In this document: positions 15,249 through 33,917 of the stretch, in pieces
How the letters are laid out: every line of letters starts with the position of its first letter
Numbering within the stretch: the stretch's first letter is position 1
Virus record (IMG/VR): IMGVR_UViG_3300047273_000109
Coordinates: 1 to 33,917 of that record
Direction: 5' to 3' (one strand)
DNA from: a virus
DNA: 33,917 bases
Notes under the pieces: generated by a model
The model's input: only the letters and a program-made list of their open reading frames with translations
Database searches by the model: none
What the model was told of the DNA's origin: nothing
Made by a program: the position numbers and the translations under genes

Positions 15249-15524
15249 TTACTTACCTTTGACCTTACGAAGAAAGGCTTCGTCGATCTGGTAGTAGTTC
15301 ATCATCCGCAGCTTGCTGTTCACGACCCTACGAATCTTCACGTACCTTGCTAACTTGCCACGCACCAGACCTGGAAGCAGAATGCCCCACTGACGACGAC
15401 TGCATCCAAGGATGACAAGCCAATCGTTGATGCTCTTGTGTCCAGCAGGGATAGCCTGTTCTCCCTCGTTGCGCCGGATGTACTCAAGGATCTTGTCTGA
15501 TAGGTTGGTCTTTTTTTTGCTCAT
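15249..15524 (-). CDS. Small basic DNA-binding-like protein
   Basis: A 91-aa protein, strongly basic throughout. The N-terminus is MSKKKTNLSDKI; the central part (NDWLVILGCSRRQWGILLPGLVRG, residues about 30-55) looks like a helix-turn-helix with a recognition helix beginning S-R-R-Q. It ends RKVKGK. It is the last gene of the leftward operon and overlaps the preceding Cys-rich gene by 41 bases, which is long but kept by the only good ATG. It could be a small regulator or nucleoid-type protein; I do not recognise a named family. Confidence 0.5.
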   Translation of the reverse strand: MSKKKTNLSDKILEYIRRNEGEQAIPAGHKSINDWLVILGCSRRQWGILLPGLVRGKLARYVKIRRVVNSKLRMMNYYQIDEAFLRKVKGK

Positions 15525-15839: not shown

Positions 15840-16060
15840 TCTTGCGGAGATTGCGGAGATCTAATGTCCGCATCCTTGCGGAGTTTCTCAAGGTCTTCAA
15901 GGCAACGGAGCCACCGGGCATTATCGCACTCGGCCTCAATGCGCCAGTACTTGACCTGATGCTCCAGCCGCTCGACCTCGGCCTTGAGTCGGGTGACTTC
16001 GGAGAGAGCCAAAACCATCTCTCCCCACTTCTCCGGCTCAACCGGGATGAAGCGGCTCAT
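15836..16060 (-). CDS. Short coiled-coil protein
   Basis: A 74-aa protein. Residues about 18-62 form a continuous heptad pattern (LALSEVTRLKAEVERLEHQVKYW, then LRCLEDLEKLRKD), predicting a coiled-coil dimer or trimer. A short S-P-Q repeat ends the protein. It starts with an ATGA overlap on the upstream HTH gene. A GGAGG-like run lies about 13 bases upstream, but it is part of the upstream coding sequence, so it may be fortuitous. Function unknown; possibly an accessory subunit of a neighbour. Confidence 0.55.
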   Translation of the reverse strand: MSRFIPVEPEKWGEMVLALSEVTRLKAEVERLEHQVKYWRIEAECDNARWLRCLEDLEKLRKDADIRSPQSPQE

Positions 16061-16410
16061 TGGGTCTGCTCCTCCTTTTGAAGACGAATCTTCATATACT
16101 TACAGGCACTGCGAATGCTGGACATACGAAACCCGGTGCGGACTTGCACTTGCTTAATCGTCTCACGGCCTACCAGCGCCTCAAGCACGGCTTGCTTGAC
16201 CGATCCGTAGGCAGGACGGCCTGGCTTGCCTTGAAGGGGTATCTGCTGGCGATAAGCAGCTTGACGGATAGATGTCTCGGCTACACCAGTAGCAATCGAA
16301 GTCTCCTCTAGTGTCCACTTGTTGTCGTACATCTTGAAGGCAGCGTCACGGGCTTTACCCCATCGCTTCTTCCAGATGGAAGGGTCGGTTATATTATATG
16401 TGCGGGTCAT
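16057..16410 (-). CDS. Double helix-turn-helix DNA-binding protein
   Basis: A 117-aa protein. Two HTH units are visible, at about residues 33-58 (TLEETSIATGVAETSIRQAA) and 84-108 (TIKQVQVRTGFRMSSIRSAC), joined by a linker carrying an AT-hook-like GKPGRPAYG. The protein is basic. A second protein further upstream in the operon (17918-18388) also combines a GRP hook with two HTH segments, so they may be distant paralogues. A likely role is transcriptional control of the phage or architectural binding. It starts six bases after the preceding stop with no Shine-Dalgarno sequence, and ends in an ATGA overlap. Confidence 0.6.
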   Translation of the reverse strand: MTRTYNITDPSIWKKRWGKARDAAFKMYDNKWTLEETSIATGVAETSIRQAAYRQQIPLQGKPGRPAYGSVKQAVLEALVGRETIKQVQVRTGFRMSSIRSACKYMKIRLQKEEQTQ

Positions 16411-17648: not shown

Positions 17649-17925
17649 TTGATTGTTTGGTGACACCCACCAAAGCCTCATCGAGCCTGTCGTCAATTAA
17701 ACCAAGGATATCCCACCTGATAGGGTCGATGTGAGAGATGTAGATCTGGTTGCCTCCGGGTAGTATCTCGTACACATCAGATAGATTGAAGTCCTCCACC
17801 TCTGGGTAGAAGTCTTCCAGTTCGTCTTCCTTGCCTTCGTCCCAGACATAGGAAATGAAGACGCTGACATCAAAGATGCGTCCCTCGCACTCAAGACCTT
17901 TGAACGTATGGATTAAGTTATCCAC
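17641..17925 (-). CDS. Acidic hypothetical protein
   Basis: A 94-aa protein, strikingly acidic in the middle (DEGKEDELEDFYPEVEDFN). I chose the GTG at 17925 as start because it overlaps the preceding gene's stop by eight bases (GTGGATAA), exactly the overlap this gene then makes with the phosphoesterase; starts further upstream would force a ~74-base overlap. The C-terminus contains NQIYISHIDPIRWDI. No family recognised. Confidence 0.5.
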   Translation of the reverse strand: MDNLIHTFKGLECEGRIFDVSVFISYVWDEGKEDELEDFYPEVEDFNLSDVYEILPGGNQIYISHIDPIRWDILGLIDDRLDEALVGVTKQSNE

Positions 17926-18388
17926 TGATAGCGCCAGTCTCACGGGCTGGGGTCTGGAGGTTATAGCGGTCACAGTAATAGTAAAGTCCACGACGGGACG
18001 TGCCGGTCATACGACAAGCCTTACTGACTCCGTGCTTTAGGGCTAGGTGATAGGCGACACGGGTCTTAAGGCCGTGCCGGATGTTGGTGAAGACGCCACG
18101 TGCTACGAGTTCAGCCGCCTTCTTGTCCAAGCCTTCAGCGTTCCAGACGTAGGGCTTGTTGTTTTCCTTTGCCCACTTGACGATGCGATAGACGCATACG
18201 TTGTAGGAGTTAGCTGCCGACTCAAGGGTGCATCCAGTCTTCTGGATCATCTCGTATGCCAGGACTACCTTCTGCGCTGGCTTCACGGGTCTACCGCCCG
18301 TCTTCTTCTTGGGCTGTTCAACCGGGGTCATCATCGCCCGAACCTTTGCAGGGTCGAGGCCGACCATTCGTAGGAGTTGGTCGCTCAT
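17918..18388 (-). CDS. DNA-binding protein with AT-hook-like motif and two HTH segments
   Basis: A 156-aa basic protein. It has a GGRPVKPAQK hook-like motif (about 31-40), an HTH at about 55-80 (TLESAANSYNVCVYRIVKWA) and a second at about 120-145 (GVSKACRMTGTSRRGLYYYC). The second resembles resolvase or transposase-type recognition helices. It is a likely regulator or DNA-organising protein of the leftward operon. It is coupled to the preceding gene by ATGA and to the next by an eight-base overlap. Possibly related to the 16057-16410 product, which uses the same elements in a different order. Confidence 0.55.
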   Translation of the reverse strand: MSDQLLRMVGLDPAKVRAMMTPVEQPKKKTGGRPVKPAQKVVLAYEMIQKTGCTLESAANSYNVCVYRIVKWAKENNKPYVWNAEGLDKKAAELVARGVFTNIRHGLKTRVAYHLALKHGVSKACRMTGTSRRGLYYYCDRYNLQTPARETGAISG

Positions 18389-20573: not shown

Positions 20574-21275
20574 TTAAGCGTGTACTGCGGTGTAGTACTC
20601 ACGGATGCGACGGAGGAGGGCTTCCCCTGTTTCCTTGTTATTAAACCTGTCGAGGAGTGTTGTGCCATTATAATTCGTGGTGATGATTGTAGGCCGGAGA
20701 TTGCTGGTTCGTTCGTCGATGATGGCGAACAGGTCGGACTCCATACGGGGGGTCAGACGTTCCTTCCCCAGATCGTCGAACGCCAGGAGGGGGACGGTGC
20801 AGAAGTAATCGAGTACCTTGCCGTGCTTATGCTCATCGAACCCCTTCTCGATAGCCATCTCAAGTTTACGCATCGGCAGCCAGATGGCCTTGTCGGGAAA
20901 GTTATCAGCCCAGATACGATTGAAGATTAACCAAGCCGTGCGGGTCTTGCCTGTGCCTGTCGTGCCGTGGAGCAGGAGGCTTGCCTTGTCCCCCGGCTTC
21001 CAGGTCGTGATGCGTTGCAGATTGTCGGAGAGCCTTGAGACTTCCGTGTCGATGAAGGCAACGGGATATTCTGGATGACGATCCAGCCAGATGTATCCGT
21101 GCTTGGCGAGGACTTCGTCATACTTGAAAGGGTAGTCCCAGTATGTCGTCTTGCCTGTGTCAGCGCAAGGCTTGCACGTGAAATACTTTGTGATGAATGT
21201 CTTCTTCACAGGGTCATACACAGGAGTCAACGGCCCCTTGCATCCGTTGCAGAATGGCTTGTGTTTAGCGTCCAT
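20574..21275 (-). CDS. DnaC/IstB-like AAA+ helicase loader
   Basis: A 233-aa protein. The N-terminal zinc ribbon is C9-x2-C12 ... C34-x2-C37. The AAA+ core follows: Walker A GTTGTGKT (about 104-111), Walker B LLAFDDLGKE, sensor-1 TIITTNY and a C-terminal L-L-R-R-I-R-E arginine region. This is the DnaC/DnaI/IstB group, which loads the replicative helicase onto the origin. No helicase gene is visible here, so it probably recruits the host DnaB. The start at 21275 overlaps the preceding stop by 11 bases; the longer upstream frame is inside that gene. Confidence 0.85.
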   Translation of the reverse strand: MDAKHKPFCNGCKGPLTPVYDPVKKTFITKYFTCKPCADTGKTTYWDYPFKYDEVLAKHGYIWLDRHPEYPVAFIDTEVSRLSDNLQRITTWKPGDKASLLLHGTTGTGKTRTAWLIFNRIWADNFPDKAIWLPMRKLEMAIEKGFDEHKHGKVLDYFCTVPLLAFDDLGKERLTPRMESDLFAIIDERTSNLRPTIITTNYNGTTLLDRFNNKETGEALLRRIREYYTAVHA

Positions 21276-21498
21276 CGTTCTTGATCGTCTTGTCGTAGGT
21301 CTGCCAGCCGGACTCAGTGTAGGCCCGGATGACGCAGCTAATCTCAACCTCGTCCCAGTAGATGTTCATACACATCTTGTCCGTGGTAAGTGAAATCTTT
21401 CCACTACCTGGCATCACGAAGTCCTCGATGGCGTTGACGAACTGGTTGTCAGCCCAAGCGTCGAATCCAAGGCGTTTGATTTGGTCTTCAGAATCCAT
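21265..21498 (-). CDS. Small hypothetical protein in the replication operon
   Basis: A 77-aa protein starting MDSEDQIKRLGFDAW. The middle is beta-rich (KISLTTDKMCMNIYW, VEISCVIRAYTESGW). I prefer the ATG at 21498, preceded by the G-free leader CCACAACA seen at many other starts, over a GTG five codons upstream. It overlaps its neighbours by 11 bases on both sides, the tight packing of a translationally coupled operon. Family unknown. Confidence 0.55.
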   Translation of the reverse strand: MDSEDQIKRLGFDAWADNQFVNAIEDFVMPGSGKISLTTDKMCMNIYWDEVEISCVIRAYTESGWQTYDKTIKNDGR

Positions 21499-22153
21499 TG
21501 TTGTGGTCTTCACGGGTTAAGATTTTGGTAAAAGATTTACTATTCTTTACCTTCTCTGGGAACAGTCCCTGCCAGTCGTTAGCGATAGATCGGTTGATGC
21601 ACTCCACGGCTTCCAGTTCGGTCAGCCCTTGGAGCAAGGCAAGCTGCTTCTCTTGAGCGAACCGGGATAGGCGCTTCTTAGTCTTAGTCCGATAGTTAAC
21701 CCATTCACCCCAAGCCCTTCTGAAGTTCTCACCGTGAGGCAAAGAAAGGGGTAGGGGTTCTGTATCTATCTCATTGTTATTCTCTTTTCTACTCTTGGAC
21801 GTCAACTTGGCGTGAGGGTCACGACAGACTGGCGTGAGGGTCACGTCAACTTGGCGTGAGGGGGTGGAGGCAGAATACGACCCGATGGTCTGCACCCTGC
21901 GCTGGTTTCCTGCTGCCTCATTGATGACCTTGATGACCAGACCGGCCTCCTCTAGCCGTGCCAGATACCGCTGGATCGCCCTCTCGCTGACGCTCAGACG
22001 GCTTGCAAGCCAGTCGTTGGATGCCCAGCACCCCTTGCCCCCGTCCAAGACCTCCAGAAGCCCGTAGAGGCACTTCTCCTCCAGGCTCAGGTCAAGGCGT
22101 GAGAGGACAGCCCCTGGAATCCAGAGGCCAAATCCTTCCTTGGGTGCGGTCAC
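21488..22153 (-). CDS. Winged-helix replication initiator / replisome organiser-like protein
   Basis: A 221-aa protein. Residues about 20-85 form a clear winged helix (SLEEKCLYGLLEVLDGGKG, CWASNDWLASRLSVSERAIQ, RYLARLEEAGLVIKV), the arrangement of phage O-type and DnaD-type initiators. A polar linker with PLPLSLP and a helical C-terminal domain follow (FRRAWGEWVNYRTKTKKRLS). Directly upstream of a DnaC-like loader, this is the usual place for the protein that recognises the origin and hands over to the loader. The start codon is GTG, supported by a GTGA overlap with the nuclease stop. Possible binding targets are the iterons at the right edge or the AT-rich gap near 31.1 kb, which is speculation. 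Confidence 0.7.
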   Translation of the reverse strand: MTAPKEGFGLWIPGAVLSRLDLSLEEKCLYGLLEVLDGGKGCWASNDWLASRLSVSERAIQRYLARLEEAGLVIKVINEAAGNQRRVQTIGSYSASTPSRQVDVTLTPVCRDPHAKLTSKSRKENNNEIDTEPLPLSLPHGENFRRAWGEWVNYRTKTKKRLSRFAQEKQLALLQGLTELEAVECINRSIANDWQGLFPEKVKNSKSFTKILTREDHNNGF

Positions 22154-23403: not shown

Positions 23404-23455
23404 TCGATGTGTTACTCCGGCTTGCATCTATTGGTCAAGGTGGCATATTGACTTT
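23404..23455. promoter_or_regulatory. Divergent promoter region between leftward and rightward early genes
   Basis: Only 52 bases separate the two divergent starts. The minus strand shows TTGACC and the plus strand ATTGAC; their -10 regions would lie inside or beside the opposite gene's 5' end, so the promoters would overlap and compete. No palindromic operator is evident. This is inferred mainly from gene orientation. Confidence 0.4.
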
Positions 23456-24319: not shown

Positions 24320-24691
24320 ATGACTGAAGCCACCACTAACAAGAAGCCCACCACCGTATCCGATATGGTTGAGTACTTCTCCATCCTCCCCCGCGCCAAG
24401 GCTCGCCTTGAGCAAGCCCTCTCTGACGAGATCGTCAAAGGGCTAGACTGGAATACCCTCCGGGCTTTGGCATTCGCTTGCCGTGACCCGAAGACCAGCG
24501 CCAAGGACATCACCCTCTCCCAGAAGGTTATGATGTACCGCAAGTACGACAAACTGTGGGACTCCATTTCGGAGGCCACTAAGTTGTTCGGCAGCTCCAT
24601 CAACCAAGTGAAGTGTCAGCCGGAGATTGGCGAAGATGTCGCCACGTTCCGCACCCGCTTCCTCCAAGCCATCCTTGGGCTAGGAAAATAA
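24320..24691 (+). CDS. Hypothetical helical protein
   Basis: A 123-aa protein, largely helical (VSDMVEYFSILPRAKARLEQAL, in two adjoining helices) with a conserved-looking WNTLRALAFACRD segment. It shares the A of its stop with the methyltransferase ATG (TAATG) and is presumably cotranslated with it. It could be a partner of the methyltransferase, by position only. Confidence 0.55.
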   Translation: MTEATTNKKPTTVSDMVEYFSILPRAKARLEQALSDEIVKGLDWNTLRALAFACRDPKTSAKDITLSQKVMMYRKYDKLWDSISEATKLFGSSINQVKCQPEIGEDVATFRTRFLQAILGLGK

Positions 24692-26154
24692 TGCGTTACT
24701 TTTCAGTATGCTCCGGTATCGAAGCTGCGTCTGTGGCGTGGCACGATATGGGATGGACTCCGGTAGGATTTAGTGAGATCGAGCCATTCCCCTGTGAAGT
24801 ACTGAAACAACGCTATCCTCACGTAAAAAACTACGGAGATCTAAACAACTATGAGCAATGGAATATCGAGCCAGGAACAGTTGATGTTTTGGTCGGAGGC
24901 CCGCCCTGCCAAGCCTTTTCCGTGGCCGGCCTCAGAGAAGGAATGGCTGACCCACGTGGTAACTTATCCCTCATCTATTTCGGATTGGTTAAAAGACTTA
25001 GACCAAAGTGGATTGTGTACGAGAATGTCCCCGGACTGTTGTCAGCGAGGTCTGGATCAGACTTTTCGGCCCTCCTCTCAGCGTTGGCTGAATGCGGCTA
25101 TGGGTTCGCCTACCGAATGCTGGACGCACAACACTTCGGTCTGGCCCAGCGTCGGCAAAGAATCTTCATCGTTGGCTGCCGTACTGGAGACTGGAGGCAT
25201 CCCACAGCGGTACTATTTGACGGCCCAAGCAGCTACAGGCATTTTAAGAAGGGCGAGGACGAGGGGAAAGAAACTCCCACCACTTCTGGAACAGGCGCTG
25301 GAACTCCAAGCAGGATCAACTGCCAGCCAGACGGAATCTCCGGAACAGTCACTAACAAGTGGCACAAAGGAAGCGGAGGCCCAGCCGGAGACGAACACTA
25401 CAACCTCATCGTCCGAGGAGTAAGTAGTCAGTCTCACTGGAATGGTAGTGATATTCATCCTACATTAAACCAGTCACACTCCGGCAGTGGCAGTCCTGGG
25501 TATAGCAACCAAGAGTTATTTGCCCAAGGAGGCAGTGGCCTTGTACCAATAGTATCGAGCCAGTTACTCTACGAAAATCATCCCAATGACAGCAGGGTGT
25601 CTGGCCCTCACGACATCGCTCCAACGATCACAACACGCTTCGGCACGGGTGGTGGCAACGTACCTTTTGTGCAGAACGTATCAGCGGTAGCCATCCCTAT
25701 CGACACACGTAATGCCACACGTGACGCAGAAAAACGTGATGCTATGAACCGGCAAGGTGTAGGTATAGGTAATGAGGGTGACCCGTGTGGTACGCTCACA
25801 TCATCTCACATCAGCGCCGTGGCGTTCCAGCCTGGAAACTTGGCAAGACGTGCTGGCAGTGATCCGTCCACCGAGGTATTCCCTACCCTATCCAAAGACA
25901 GCGGTGATCAGAACCCTCACGTTGCTATCCCGATGGGGGTACGCAGACTCCTGCCTTCTGAGTGCGAATCATTACAAGGCTTCCCGAAGGATTGGACGAG
26001 GATCTCTTGGAAGGGTAAGCTGCCGGAGCAATGTCCAGATGGGCCTAGGTATAAGGCTATCGGGAATAGTATGGCTACCAATTGTATGAAGTGGATCGGT
26101 AGGCGTATACAACTTGTAGATGACTTGGTTGCCACATTGCCACCGCAGGGGTAG
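24691..26154 (+). CDS. C5-cytosine DNA methyltransferase
   Basis: A 487-aa protein with all core motifs: I, FSVCSGIEAAS (4-14); IV, GGPPCQAFSVAG with catalytic Cys73; VI, YENVPG (110-115); VIII, QRRQRIFIVG (153-162); IX/X, RRLLPSECESLQGFP and KAIGNSMA near the C-terminus. It methylates carbon 5 of cytosine in DNA, using AdoMet. Between VIII and IX is a long (~250 aa) variable region with repeated phrases (PTITTRFGTGGG, GTLTSSHISAVA, FPTLSKDSGDQNPH) that should include the target-recognition domain. There is no partner restriction gene, so it probably protects phage DNA from host restriction. The specificity is unknown. A second reading frame at 24851-25423 looks like an overprinted gene. Confidence 0.92.
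   Translation: MRYFSVCSGIEAASVAWHDMGWTPVGFSEIEPFPCEVLKQRYPHVKNYGDLNNYEQWNIEPGTVDVLVGGPPCQAFSVAGLREGMADPRGNLSLIYFGLVKRLRPKWIVYENVPGLLSARSGSDFSALLSALAECGYGFAYRMLDAQHFGLAQRRQRIFIVGCRTGDWRHPTAVLFDGPSSYRHFKKGEDEGKETPTTSGTGAGTPSRINCQPDGISGTVTNKWHKGSGGPAGDEHYNLIVRGVSSQSHWNGSDIHPTLNQSHSGSGSPGYSNQELFAQGGSGLVPIVSSQLLYENHPNDSRVSGPHDIAPTITTRFGTGGGNVPFVQNVSAVAIPIDTRNATRDAEKRDAMNRQGVGIGNEGDPCGTLTSSHISAVAFQPGNLARRAGSDPSTEVFPTLSKDSGDQNPHVAIPMGVRRLLPSECESLQGFPKDWTRISWKGKLPEQCPDGPRYKAIGNSMATNCMKWIGRRIQLVDDLVATLPPQG
24851..25423 (+). CDS. Overprinted gene inside the methyltransferase gene (+1 frame, 190 aa)
   Basis: This frame lies wholly inside the methyltransferase gene. It begins at an ATG after a G-poor leader (AAACAACT) and runs 190 codons. 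It reads like a real protein: EQLMFWSEARPAKPFPWPAS near the start, GMGSPTECW-like AAMGSPTECWTHNTSVWPS, then LETGGIPQRYYLTAQAATGI followed by LRRARTRGKKLPPLLEQALE. I recall closely similar 'L-E-T-G-x-x-P-Q-R-Y-Y-L-S ... GILRRAxxRGKxLP' proteins annotated as hypothetical beside or within phage cytosine methyltransferases, which suggests a conserved overlapping gene. Over the same bases as the basic LRRARTRGKKLP helix, the methyltransferase frame is low-complexity spacer (EGKETPTTSGTGAGTP), suggesting that selection there acts on this frame. Shadow conservation is the alternative explanation. Confidence 0.55.
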   Translation: MSNGISSQEQLMFWSEARPAKPFPWPASEKEWLTHVVTYPSSISDWLKDLDQSGLCTRMSPDCCQRGLDQTFRPSSQRWLNAAMGSPTECWTHNTSVWPSVGKESSSLAAVLETGGIPQRYYLTAQAATGILRRARTRGKKLPPLLEQALELQAGSTASQTESPEQSLTSGTKEAEAQPETNTTTSSSEE

Positions 26155-26170: not shown

Positions 26171-26437
26171 ATGTCCTATTACATTCGCATTGAACCGCAC
26201 ACGCATTTTAGAGAAGCGATCCACAAGACACGACGAGATGGGTACATCACGTACAACTATTGGGGTATGGTAAAGGTATGCGAAAAACTTTACGAAATGA
26301 ATACCGAGGATGCCATCGAATGGGTAGAGTACAACATACTGGGACTGAACGACAGCAACGAGGGTATGTTCGGAGTGAGGTACGCAAGCCCAAGGGTACG
26401 GCGCAAGGTAGGCACACGAAAGAAACGTGCAAGGTAG
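26171..26437 (+). CDS. Small protein with 'YITYNY...DAIEWV' motif, copy 1
   Basis: An 88-aa protein. The central block (RRDGYITYNYWGMVKVCEKL, then TEDAIEWVEYNILGL) is matched by the downstream frame ending at 26688 (KTGLITYDYDLLVDALASW, DAIEWVHKHVLPL), indicating a tandem duplication. The C-terminus is very basic (RVRRKVGTRKKRAR) and encoded by bases that lead into the GTAGG repeat tract. Function unknown. Confidence 0.5.
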   Translation: MSYYIRIEPHTHFREAIHKTRRDGYITYNYWGMVKVCEKLYEMNTEDAIEWVEYNILGLNDSNEGMFGVRYASPRVRRKVGTRKKRAR

Positions 26438-26487
26438 GTAGGGTAGGTAGGGTAGGTAGGCCAAAGGTATGCTGGGTAGGTAGGTAC
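26432..26487 (+). repeat. GGTA-type tandem repeat tract, copy 1
   Basis: Units of GTAGGTAGG(G) repeat across 26432-26460, and GGTAGGTAGGTAC occupies 26475-26487. The same (GGTA)n followed by C occurs at 29712 and 32827, each time at the start of an intergenic module. Confidence 0.8.
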
Positions 26488-28997: not shown

Positions 28998-29279
28998 ATG
29001 AGCGATCAACCAAAAAAGAAGAATGAACCAAAGGTATACAGGATCAGTGAAACGATTCACGTATGCTACGAGGTAGTGGCAACGTCTGAAAAGGACGCAC
29101 TCAGTCACTACCAAGCGATGGCAAACAAGGATTGGATGGATCTGGTAGCAGATTCCGCATCACATTCTTGGGATACTCCGAGCGTGAATAATGAGGAGGA
29201 GTACGATCACGAACAGGAAGACGGACTGTATCCTGTGACCGATAAGGCAAAGGCCTGGATCTCCAAGAACATCGAATAA
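28998..29279 (+). CDS. Hypothetical protein (93 aa)
   Basis: It has the clearest example of the leader: TTTCC followed by CACACACAACA and ATG. The N-terminus is Lys-rich; VYRISETIHVCYEVVATSEK is a strand pair followed by a helix (DALSHYQAMANKDWMDLVAD), reminiscent of small 'V-x-A-x-S-x-x-D-A' ferredoxin-like phage proteins. The acidic centre is NNEEEYDHEQEDG. It ends in a TAATG overlap with the next gene. Confidence 0.5.
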   Translation: MSDQPKKKNEPKVYRISETIHVCYEVVATSEKDALSHYQAMANKDWMDLVADSASHSWDTPSVNNEEEYDHEQEDGLYPVTDKAKAWISKNIE

Positions 29280-29707
29280 TGAAACTCTCGATCTTGGAAG
29301 AAGTGCCGGACGATCTACCCATCGTAGACAAGTGTCTACTTGTGGCGCGTAACCTTGGCAAAGAGGCAGGAGCAAACTGTGCTGAATGGTCTGCACAGGA
29401 TGCATTTGGTGGACGTTGCACACGTGACCACAAAGCGAATGCACGTGCCGTGCTTGATGCAATCGAGGAAGGATCATTATTAGATTCCTATGATTACAAT
29501 CTGCCTAATCTATCCGGTGAGTACTCAGACGAAATGACTCCGGCGCAACTACTCAAAGACGTGATGTATCACACGGACGCAGAACGAGGAGAACACACGG
29601 ACGAGGTAGAGGAGGCACTTGATGATCTGTGCAACGAGTGGGAGGTAGGAGTGATCGAAGGGTACGAGTGGCAGTTAGCCATACTCGCCAAGAGTGCCTT
29701 GGAGTAG
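29279..29707 (+). CDS. Acidic hypothetical protein (142 aa)
   Basis: Strongly acidic, helical (DKCLLVARNLGKEAGANCAE, ANARAVLDAIEEGS, DEVEEALDDLCNEWEVGVI). The start is fixed by the TAATG overlap. It is the last gene before the GGTA repeat and terminator at 29.71-29.77 kb. The acidity could suit DNA mimicry or inhibitor functions, but this is only a composition argument. Confidence 0.5.
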   Translation: MKLSILEEVPDDLPIVDKCLLVARNLGKEAGANCAEWSAQDAFGGRCTRDHKANARAVLDAIEEGSLLDSYDYNLPNLSGEYSDEMTPAQLLKDVMYHTDAERGEHTDEVEEALDDLCNEWEVGVIEGYEWQLAILAKSALE

Positions 29708-29711
29708 GCAA

Positions 29712-29727
29712 GGTAGGTAGGTAGGTA
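29712..29727 (+). repeat. GGTA tandem repeat, copy 2
   Basis: GGTA is repeated three times and followed by GGTAC, five bases after the preceding stop codon. It opens the second intergenic module, as at 26475 and 32827. Confidence 0.8.
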
Positions 29728-29732
29728 CATCA

Positions 29733-29766
29733 GGTACACGCATACACGTGTGCCTTTTTTGTTTTT
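29733..29766 (+). terminator. Intrinsic terminator
   Basis: GGTACACG (29733-29740) pairs with CGTGTGCC (29747-29754), eight base pairs with one G-T pair and a six-base loop, followed by TTTTTTG and TTTTTG. It ends the 26.7-29.7 kb gene cluster. Confidence 0.75.
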
Positions 29767-29924
29767 GTCTATCAGCTGCCGTCCGAATCCTGGCTAACGA
29801 TCACGCACGTCCGCAGTCCGGAGGCACGACAAGACCGGCCGACGCGTGACCTGGCTAACGTGTGCCGGATCATCCTGCAAAGTGTATGCACAATCCCACT
29901 ACAACACTCGGACGATCTGAGTAG
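29767..29924. other. Non-coding stretch with a decayed copy of 26.5-26.7 kb DNA
   Basis: No gene is seen here. Four words occur in the same order as in 26511-26672: AGCTGCCGTCCG (29774), ACAAGACCGGCC (29829), TGACCTGGCTAA (29847) and CCGGATCAT (29865); in the first copy they begin at 26511, 26528, 26643 and 26664. This looks like a shrunken, frame-destroyed duplicate of the 3' part of the 'DAIEWV' paralogue, or a functional module reused in both places. Confidence 0.5.
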
Positions 29925-29966
29925 TTGACTATTTAGTTTCACGTGTCCTTATAGATCACGCACTAC
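29925..29966 (+). promoter_or_regulatory. Promoter with conserved start-site box, copy 1
   Basis: TTGACT (29925-29930), 19-base spacer, TATAGA (29950-29955), then ACGCACTAC at 29958-29966, eight bases before the next ATG. The same arrangement with identical spacing occurs at 33038-33079, which makes a real promoter and start region likely. The 19-base spacer is longer than the usual 17. Confidence 0.6.
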
Positions 29967-30874: not shown

Positions 30875-31418
30875 GTGCCTACTCCGGCGGCGCGTGGAAG
30901 TTTCTTAGATCCGGACGCAGTTTGTTCTTGAATAGGAAGAAGTGAGATCCGGCACGTCTGGCGTTCGCCCTGGGGTCGTTTACTGTTTACGAGTGTCCTA
31001 CCCTTCACCACATAGTAAACCAGCCTTGTAGGGCATTTGTGTGCTTATGTAAATCGTTGATAGTTAACGAGTTATGTAACTTGTAAAAATGTGTAAAAAG
31101 ATGGGTTAACTACCTAATCATTAGTAATGAACCCTGGATTAGAAAGTTATTCACAACCGGCACAATTTGCTTGAATTGAAAATATAGTTGACGATCTGGC
31201 CGACACTGTTTTCGCCCAATAAAATCAAGGGTTTTATGACGTGCCTCCACACTTGCCCCTGGTGGCGTTTTGATTGACTACCCCTTACCAGATCACTCCC
31301 AAAGTAAACCCCACTTTAAAACGGCACGGATTCAAAGTGTGCGATTTATTCCCTTATTTACTCAATTTGCTTGTGCCGGATCTGCTGCGCGTAGACACTA
31401 CTCACGCACAACACTACT
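30875..31418. other. Longest non-coding gap; AT-rich, possible origin or long leader
   Basis: No convincing gene lies in these 544 bases. The part 31021-31155 is AT-rich (hand count about 30% GC in 31081-31140). It holds a perfect 13-base odd palindrome TCATTAGTAATGA (31118-31130), TTATTCACA (31147-31155, one mismatch from a DnaA box), GTTGAC at 31187 and a weak ATAAAA/TTTTAT hairpin (31219-31237). A loose match to the conserved promoter ends in ACGCACAAC at 31404, before the gene at 31419. It may be an origin, a regulatory region, or both. Confidence 0.4.
31157..31379. repeat. Direct repeat CAATTTGCTTG flanked by inverted CCGGCAC/GTGCCGG
   Basis: CAATTTGCTTG occurs at 31163-31173 and again at 31363-31373, exactly 200 bases apart. 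The first copy is preceded by CCGGCA(C) (31158-31164) and the second followed by (G)TGCCGG (31373-31379), giving outward-placed inverted repeats. The bounded segment is non-coding. Confidence 0.6.
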
Positions 31419-32794: not shown

Positions 32795-32819
32795 AGGGAG
32801 GCGAGTGCCTCCCTTTTTT
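32795..32819 (+). terminator. Intrinsic terminator of the GGGAGGC family, copy 2
   Basis: GGGAGGC (32796-32802), loop GAGT, GCCTCCC (32807-32813), then TTTTTT and GTGCCT. Identical to copy 1 in stem, loop and tail. Confidence 0.85.
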
Positions 32820-32826
32820 GTGCCTT

Positions 32827-32847
32827 GGTAGGTAGGTAGGTAGGTAC
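32827..32847 (+). repeat. GGTA tandem repeat, copy 3
   Basis: GGTA is repeated five times and ends in C, starting eight bases after the terminator T-run. It opens the third intergenic module. Confidence 0.8.
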
Positions 32848-33037
32848 ACGCACGCATTACGCACGCACTCCGGCACGTGCTGATCACGTACGCCTGGCCT
32901 CAGCTGCCGGACGTAAGTAAGATCCAACTACACACGTAGTTAAAAAATAATTACGTACGTATGTAGTAAACAACTACGCAAGACCGGCCAAGATCGCTTT
33001 GATCGTGTATCCAGAATCCGCACACAAAATCCTGGCA
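32848..33037. other. Non-coding intergenic module 3
   Basis: No gene is seen. It contains AGCTGCCGGACG (32902), CGTAGTTAA and ATTACGTACGTAT (32934-32962, partly palindromic and similar to the right-edge iterons), TATGTAGTAAAC (32960-32971, repeated at 33770), GCAAGACCGGCCA (32978) and AATCCTGGC (33028, also at 29787). The order of shared words follows the other two modules. Confidence 0.5.
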
Positions 33038-33079
33038 TTGACAGTTAACTATTTCGGATCAAGATAAGTGACGCACTAC
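33038..33079 (+). promoter_or_regulatory. Promoter with conserved start-site box, copy 2
   Basis: TTGACA (33038-33043), 19-base spacer, GATAAG (33063-33068), then ACGCACTAC (33071-33079), seven bases before the ATG at 33087. All offsets equal those of the 29925 promoter. Confidence 0.6.
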
Positions 33080-33086
33080 TAACACA

Positions 33087-33647
33087 ATGAGCATATCAAT
33101 ACAGACGGCACTTATCACCCTCCTCGGTTCTAACCCTCCTCGATCTGTCGAGGAAGCACGCGCCGTGATCACAGCAATGGAATACGCATACGGACGTCCG
33201 TGTGTCTTCCCTTCTGACGTTGGCAATCACGTTCCTACTCGCCTCGAAATGTTCCGGCACTTGGTCGCAACGTCTGACAAGCGAGACAACGAACGCAAGG
33301 CACTCGGATACACTGAGGAAGCATTCCAGAACCTTCTTGATCGCCTCCGGAAAATCGATGTGAACGGTTACGCCACTCTTACGGACGATTCACTGACCGG
33401 ATACGGAATTGAGGAGCGTTGCGAAATGGTGAAGCAAGCGATCGAACACATTGAAGCACAGGAACACGTGTACGTAACTATCAAGGACGTTCGTATTGCT
33501 CGCTCCTCCGGTTATCCAATCTTCATCAAGGCAGGAACACGTGTGATGCACGAATGGAAAAACGAGTTTTGGGTTTACGGTAAAGTAAACAACTACCAAG
33601 TGCCTTCTGAATGTGTCGCACGGATCACCGGAGCAGGAAGTTTGTAA
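33087..33647 (+). CDS. Hypothetical protein (186 aa)
   Basis: The leader is ACTACTAACACA before ATG. Helical N-terminal two thirds (SVEEARAVITAMEYAYGRPC, AFQNLLDRLRKIDVNG) and a beta-rich C-terminal third (HVYVTIKDVRIARSSGYPIF, IKAGTRVMHEW). The C-terminal part has the look of a small SH3-like domain with an 'I-K-A-G-T-x-V' strand. It is the only gene between the 33038 promoter and the 33671 terminator. Function unknown. Confidence 0.55.
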   Translation: MSISIQTALITLLGSNPPRSVEEARAVITAMEYAYGRPCVFPSDVGNHVPTRLEMFRHLVATSDKRDNERKALGYTEEAFQNLLDRLRKIDVNGYATLTDDSLTGYGIEERCEMVKQAIEHIEAQEHVYVTIKDVRIARSSGYPIFIKAGTRVMHEWKNEFWVYGKVNNYQVPSECVARITGAGSL

Positions 33648-33670
33648 ACAGGTAACACATACAGAATCAA

Positions 33671-33694
33671 GGGAGGCACTCGCCTCCCTTTTTT
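33671..33694 (+). terminator. Intrinsic terminator of the GGGAGGC family, copy 3 (inverted hairpin)
   Basis: GGGAGGC (33671-33677), loop ACTC, GCCTCCC (33682-33688), then TTTTTT and GTGCCT. The stem-loop is the exact reverse complement of copies 1 and 2, while the T-run and GTGCCT tail keep the same orientation. Confidence 0.85.
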
Positions 33695-33828
33695 GTGCCT
33701 TGATCATATAGGACACAGGAAAAGGTTACGCGCAGGATTTTGGAGATCCGTTCAAAGGCACTTTCCGAATATGTAGTAAACGGATACGCATTAGCCAGGG
33801 CGAACGGCAGCGGATCGTATGCGGAAGA
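33695..33828. other. Non-coding approach to the repeat array
   Basis: No gene is seen. TATGTAGTAAAC followed by GGATACGC (33770-33789) matches 32960-32979 at 17 of 20 positions. CGTA at 33816-33819 falls in the phase of a preceding, otherwise degenerate, 27-base unit of the downstream array. Confidence 0.45.
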
Positions 33829-33917
33829 TCATTACGTGTGTTCGTAGTTAACTTCTCATTACGTCCGGACGTATTCAAAAGATCATTACATTAGAACGTA
33901 ATAGAAATGTCATTACG
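33829..33917. repeat. Iteron array: direct repeats with exact 27-bp period, cut by the window edge
   Basis: TCATTAC begins at 33829, 33856, 33883 and 33910, each exactly 27 bases apart. In the three complete units, 14 of 27 columns are invariant: TCATTAC at positions 1-7, T at 9, G at 12, CGTA at 15-18, T at 20 and A at 23. Within each unit the halves face each other (ATTACG ... CGTA), so each is a dyad; unit 2 has the perfect palindrome TACGTCCGGACGTA. Arrays like this are binding sites for replication initiators, partition proteins or cooperative repressors. The array is likely to continue past 33917. Confidence 0.8.

Follow-up and report, generated by a model that had tools for sequence, protein, structure and literature searches.

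What is the function of the ladder of short repeats at the right edge of this viral DNA? The stretch analysed here (the window, 33,917 bp) ends on a row of four TCATTAC motifs that start strictly 27 bp apart, at positions 33829, 33856, 33883 and 33910, with GTA at a fixed offset, as the initial annotation had described. Because a winged-helix initiator and a DnaC-like helicase loader are encoded in the same window, that annotation took the ladder for an iteron origin of replication and named a repressor or partition array as the alternative. Our analysis makes it reasonably likely that the array is an operator array of a regulator and not a replication origin. The window is the whole IMG/VR record and has no end overlap, so the array stands at an assembly edge and not at a shown genome end, and it is cut by the end of the contig. 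On the + strand of the entire window TCATTAC occurs only six times. The 27-bp units have just 16-18 of 27 bases in common, and a tandem-repeat finder (TRF), proposed earlier as a check, makes no call on them at score 30; together these results indicate a ladder of short motifs rather than a recent tandem duplication. When the exact dyad GTAGTTAACTTCTCAYTAC was used as a query, no contig of the same species came up, only known relatives and matches in coding sequences, and a scan for TCATTAC-N20-TCATTAC gave single matches, probably due to chance, among the matches listed.

Relatives of the phage were collected via the tail protein, the exonuclease and the large terminase, and the array is present at the same syntenic place (last early gene, terminator, array, late region) in 11 of them (G004, G032, G033, G006, G037, G039, G040, G052, G018, G036 and G012), G004 and G012 being circular genomes closed by overlaps of ~125 bp. 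The invariant unit across these relatives is a 19-bp imperfect palindrome, GTA-N13-TAC, for example GTAGTTA-ACTTC-TCATTAC. The dyad symmetry reported initially is real, but its phase was wrong, and the conserved dyad spans the boundaries of the units drawn at that time. The inward dyad chosen there (TCATTAC...GTA) is equally symmetric when one genome is viewed alone, and the phase is therefore settled by comparison only. Isolated single copies, found at the region called O1 below, have the phase of the GTA-N13-TAC arrays. Spacing within the dyad is constant in all array-bearing relatives, and the gap from one dyad to the next is variable (~3-8 bp): it is 8 bp in the window (period 27), 5 bp in G037, G039, G040 and G052 (period 24), 5-6 bp in G032 (period 24-25) and 3-7 bp in G004, G012, G018 and G036 (period 22-26). 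A period of 27 bp is thus private to the window phage, although the array itself recurs in the 11 relatives, mostly at 22-26 bp. The argument that this period would place successive sites on alternating faces of the DNA does not generalise, the period being 24 in most relatives.

Read in the conserved phase, the edge array (hereafter O3) contains four complete dyads and not "three and a bit". Scored with a PWM trained on relatives only, these are GTATGCGGAAGATCATTAC (33817..33835, 14.6 bits), GTAGTTAACTTCTCATTAC (33844..33862, 19.1 bits), GTATTCAAAAGATCATTAC (33871..33889, 18.0 bits) and GTAATAGAAATGTCATTAC (33898..33916, 15.2 bits), none of them, like the dyads described below, being assigned to a strand. 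The second is present as the same 19-mer in the array of the relative G052/L200, and the fourth stops one base short of the contig end. A possible degenerate distal dyad, ATATGTAGTAAACGGATAC (33769..33787, strand likewise unassigned), reaches 8.0 bits only and lies 48 bp upstream of the first O3 dyad; in G037, G040 and G052 one dyad is found 45-47 bp upstream of the next. With the matrix trained on the relatives' sites alone and a cut-off of at least 12 bits, the window contains 10 sites against 0.68 expected, and no more than three were found in any of 60 simulated genomes. Five adjacent pairs of sites lie 20-30 bp apart in the window, and none in the 60 simulations. A site at the divergent start at 23445 was rejected, as it is partly coding sequence and, in some genomes that have the array, is weaker or missing.

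The dyads of the window fall into three regions, namely O1 with a single site, O2 with three and O3 with at least four, all of them intergenic and each behind an intrinsic terminator (29732..29755, 32795..32814 and 33669..33690, respectively, all on the + strand). The O1 dyad, GTATGCACAATCCCACTAC (29884..29902, 17.5 bits), has a counterpart in G037, at the matching position ahead of the homologous gene, and is followed after exactly 22 bp by TTGACT, a -35-like motif (29925..29930, + strand). The O2 dyads are GTAAGTAAGATCCAACTAC (32913..32931, 15.3 bits), GTAGTTAAAAAATAATTAC (32936..32954, 19.5 bits), which is identical to a dyad in O2 of G004, and GTATGTAGTAAACAACTAC (32959..32977, 17.2 bits). 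A second -35-like motif, TTGACA (33038..33043, + strand), lies 60 bp downstream of the last of them. Between O2 and O3 stands the last early gene (33087..33647, + strand), which is not conserved and which, used as a search marker, retrieved no relatives. Short (GGTA)n runs are found after early genes, near terminators, at 26432-26460, 29711-29727 and 32827-32846, and such tetranucleotide runs recur in G004 and G037.

All three regions are present in G037, G039 and G040, and at least O2 and O3 in G004 and G052. The distance from the last dyad to TTGAC is exactly 22 bp at O1 of the window and at O2 of G004 and G052, and exactly 33 bp at both O1 and O2 of G037, G039 and G040, which are close kin, so that not every 33-bp case counts as independent. 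One of these two distances is found in nine of ten O1/O2 regions, which we regard as putative promoters. In O2 of the window the dyads stand 60 and 83 bp from TTGACA, the same distances at which O2 of G037 has its second and third dyads. Spacers of independent regions are unrelated, with 5-10 of 22 and 7-11 of 33 positions identical. It is mainly because these distances are kept over unrelated spacers, and differ by one helical turn, that we read the dyads as operators; judged from sequence comparison, the conserved distances appear to point to a promoter-linked regulator. A sigma-70 scan reported no promoter at the O1/O2 motifs, and the -10 elements are weak. No TTGAC is found near O3, except in G012.

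The dyads are therefore probably putative sites of a control protein, forming a gene switch at three places in the early region. The repressor array offered initially as the alternative, that is, an operator array, is the best fit, since two further intergenic regions also have these dyads upstream of promoter-like motifs, so that one palindromic site is found at several putative promoter regions (O1, O2 and O3) of a single genome. We propose that one dimeric DNA-binding regulator would recognise the 19-bp GTA-N13-TAC dyad at O1, O2 and O3. At O1 and O2 its place would be upstream of a TTGAC(T/A) promoter by two or three helical turns, and by more than that in one case, in the manner of a class-I activator; alternatively, it might act there by upstream repression or looping. 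The O3 ladder, located where the early region meets the late (terminase) operon, could control the switch from early to late expression, possibly also through contacts with O2, ~0.9 kb away. Such a precise operator (GTA-N13-TAC, three regions, a 22/33-bp register) can serve as bait for the early/late regulator of this phage group.

Two known systems are comparable. The lambda operators oL and oR are imperfect palindromes of 17-19 bp, placed in tandem at about 23-27 bp. The window phage resembles this CI/Cro arrangement in having several tandem imperfect palindromes in two or more separate sets. However, its sequence differs, the dyads lie upstream of the promoter-like motif and not over it, the number of sites varies from 1 to 6, and no CI/Cro-like protein or integrase was found among the proteins scanned, the window being a fragment. 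The sites of the P2 Ogr and P4 delta late-promoter activators are single TGT-N12-ACA sites near -55; here the likeness lies in short half-sites about 12-13 bp apart, upstream of weak promoters, whereas no Ogr-like zinc-finger protein was identified in the window phage. For lambda CI, PMC5880393 describes two sets of three operators joined by DNA looping.

Most array-bearing relatives have AT-rich TATAATA repeats after O3; such repeats are absent from O1 and O2, and also from G036, where the array is present. The repeats precede a G-rich block and then the conserved element CTTTTT(T/C)TGCAATAAGCC, which lies ~1.2-2 kb before the terminase. At L203 (4157-4250) and other loci upstream of the terminase, the order ahead of the late operon is a conserved G-rich block, then GGGTTNACCC and CTTTTT(T/C)TGCAATAAGCC, and relatives that lack the array show it as well. 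That a class-II activator might work at TATAATA was considered and rejected, as the distance from O3 to this element is not constant (4, 15, 23-29 bp, or larger). Also discarded was the interpretation of TGGAC-TTTTT-TTGCA, within the conserved element, as a sigma-54 motif; by eye, the GG is not conserved and the spacing is one base short. In L181 (487-561), L303 (16657-16729) and L185 (9856-9930) a tRNA-Thr (anticodon TGT) lies between the array region and the terminase.

The position of O3 just ahead of the terminase operon, with the terminase ~1.2-2 kb downstream, raises the question of whether a small terminase or a ParB-like protein would bind it as a site for packaging (pac/cos) or partition (parS-like). 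In the relatives, the first late gene begins with an HTH-like stretch, and the G-rich block and CTTTTT(T/C)TGCAATAAGCC are conserved beside O3, both of which would suit such a role. However, relatives with an 81-90% identical large terminase are missing the dyads and keep the TGCAATAAGCC element, the dyads are also found upstream of early promoter-like motifs, and no ParA- or ParB-like protein was found among the proteins scanned. We consider a packaging or partition role unlikely. Because array-less relatives have the TGCAATAAGCC element too, it belongs to something other than the array, perhaps to the late promoter region or to packaging. In the array-less relatives L204, L214, L216-L218 and L239 a very GC-rich intergenic block replaces the array upstream of the terminase, which indicates that the early arm is mosaic.

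If the dyads are operators, the regulator could be encoded by the phage or by its host. Among the genomes compared, the only proteins that strictly co-occur with the operator arrays are a C5-cytosine methyltransferase (24613-26154) and an acidic 142-aa protein (29279-29707), both linked to the same arm as the sites and neither an obvious DNA-binding regulator. A candidate with two predicted trihelical HTH-like units (17918..18388, - strand) occurs in array-less relatives too, and a fold search gave no significant PDB match. Other HTH proteins of the phage are encoded at 15249-15524 and 16057-16410. A search against Rfam gave no match. No phage regulator thus tracks the presence of the sites, as would be expected if the dyads belonged to a host regulator exploited by the phage. 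The only two relatives of the terminase in cellular genomes are both on Verrucomicrobia MAG contigs, for which reason the host is probably a member of Verrucomicrobiota, which might itself encode the regulator. This explanation agrees with the operator-array reading except for the encoder of the protein, and we hold it to be rather improbable.

A replicative role for O3 next to another origin is a further explanation. It might be a second, accessory origin, or an incompatibility or copy-control locus, served by a different initiator. Most relatives with the array have dyads, AT-rich DNA and a G-rich block conserved together at a single locus, as such a role would need; however, no second initiator was found, the dyads are shared with O1 and O2, G036 is without the AT-rich block, and the GC skew across the genome, which had been suggested as a check, is weak and uninformative. 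We rate this as quite unlikely. Just as doubtful is a second origin or early/late replication switch, made up of the dyad ladder, the TATAATA repeats and the G-rich block, that would work independently of the O-like initiator, through a protein that binds the dyads and has early promoters under its control as well.

The replication origin itself is likely to lie elsewhere. The presence of both replication genes noted initially is supported by profile matches: the O-like initiator with a winged helix (21488..22153, - strand) matches phrog_678 (E=3e-18) and Pfam HTH_36 (E=1e-9), and the DnaC-like loader (20574..21347, - strand) matches phrog_50 (E=4e-24). Inside the initiator gene are three 22-bp iterons, CCCTCACGCCAAGTTGACGTGA (21797..21862, - strand), beside a DUE-like tract (21758..21799, - strand; 69% A+T, 76% purine). 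Tandem iterons with dyad symmetry in an O-like gene and an adjacent AT-rich tract, as seen at 21758-21862, constitute a lambda-type layout, comparable to ori-lambda (PMC7466680), and the sequence makes the iterons at 21797-21862 the likely origin. All 24 O-like genes of the relatives have 3-4 internal iterons (22-23 bp) and an AT-rich, purine-rich tract, and the iteron sequence changes along with the O lineage, so a putative lambda-type origin within the initiator gene is general in this podophage group. The edge array (33817-33917), in contrast to ori-lambda, has another sequence and another place, outside the initiator gene, and is not conserved together with the initiator. It is absent from G021, G041, G044, G050 and G051 and so does not accompany the initiator everywhere; G021, G044, G050 and G051 have both initiator and loader, and the last three are circular genomes.

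That the edge array is the main origin, at which dimers of the O-like initiator would occupy the dyads and open the AT-rich block beside them, is very improbable: although a lambda-like initiator and loader are present, TATAATA repeats follow the array in most relatives and the 19-bp dyads are similar in form to lambda iterons, this reading is not supported because the O-like genes have their own iterons and relatives with initiator and loader do without the array, while G036 has no AT-rich block behind its array and the identical dyad type stands at O1 and O2 beside promoter-like motifs. The likely origin assignment is thereby corrected for a group of uncultured podophages that probably infect Verrucomicrobiota.

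The 24 relatives, with one layout and diverging iteron sequences, also form a ready set for a study of initiator-iteron co-evolution. The palindrome at 31118-31130, which had been related to the array through its TCATTA half-site, is a different motif from the array dyad. The intergenic segment 31118-31146, CTAATCATTAGTAATGAACCCTGGATTAG, consists of nested palindromes, and a similar GTAATGAACCTATGATTA(G/A) is found in G004, G037, G039 and G040.
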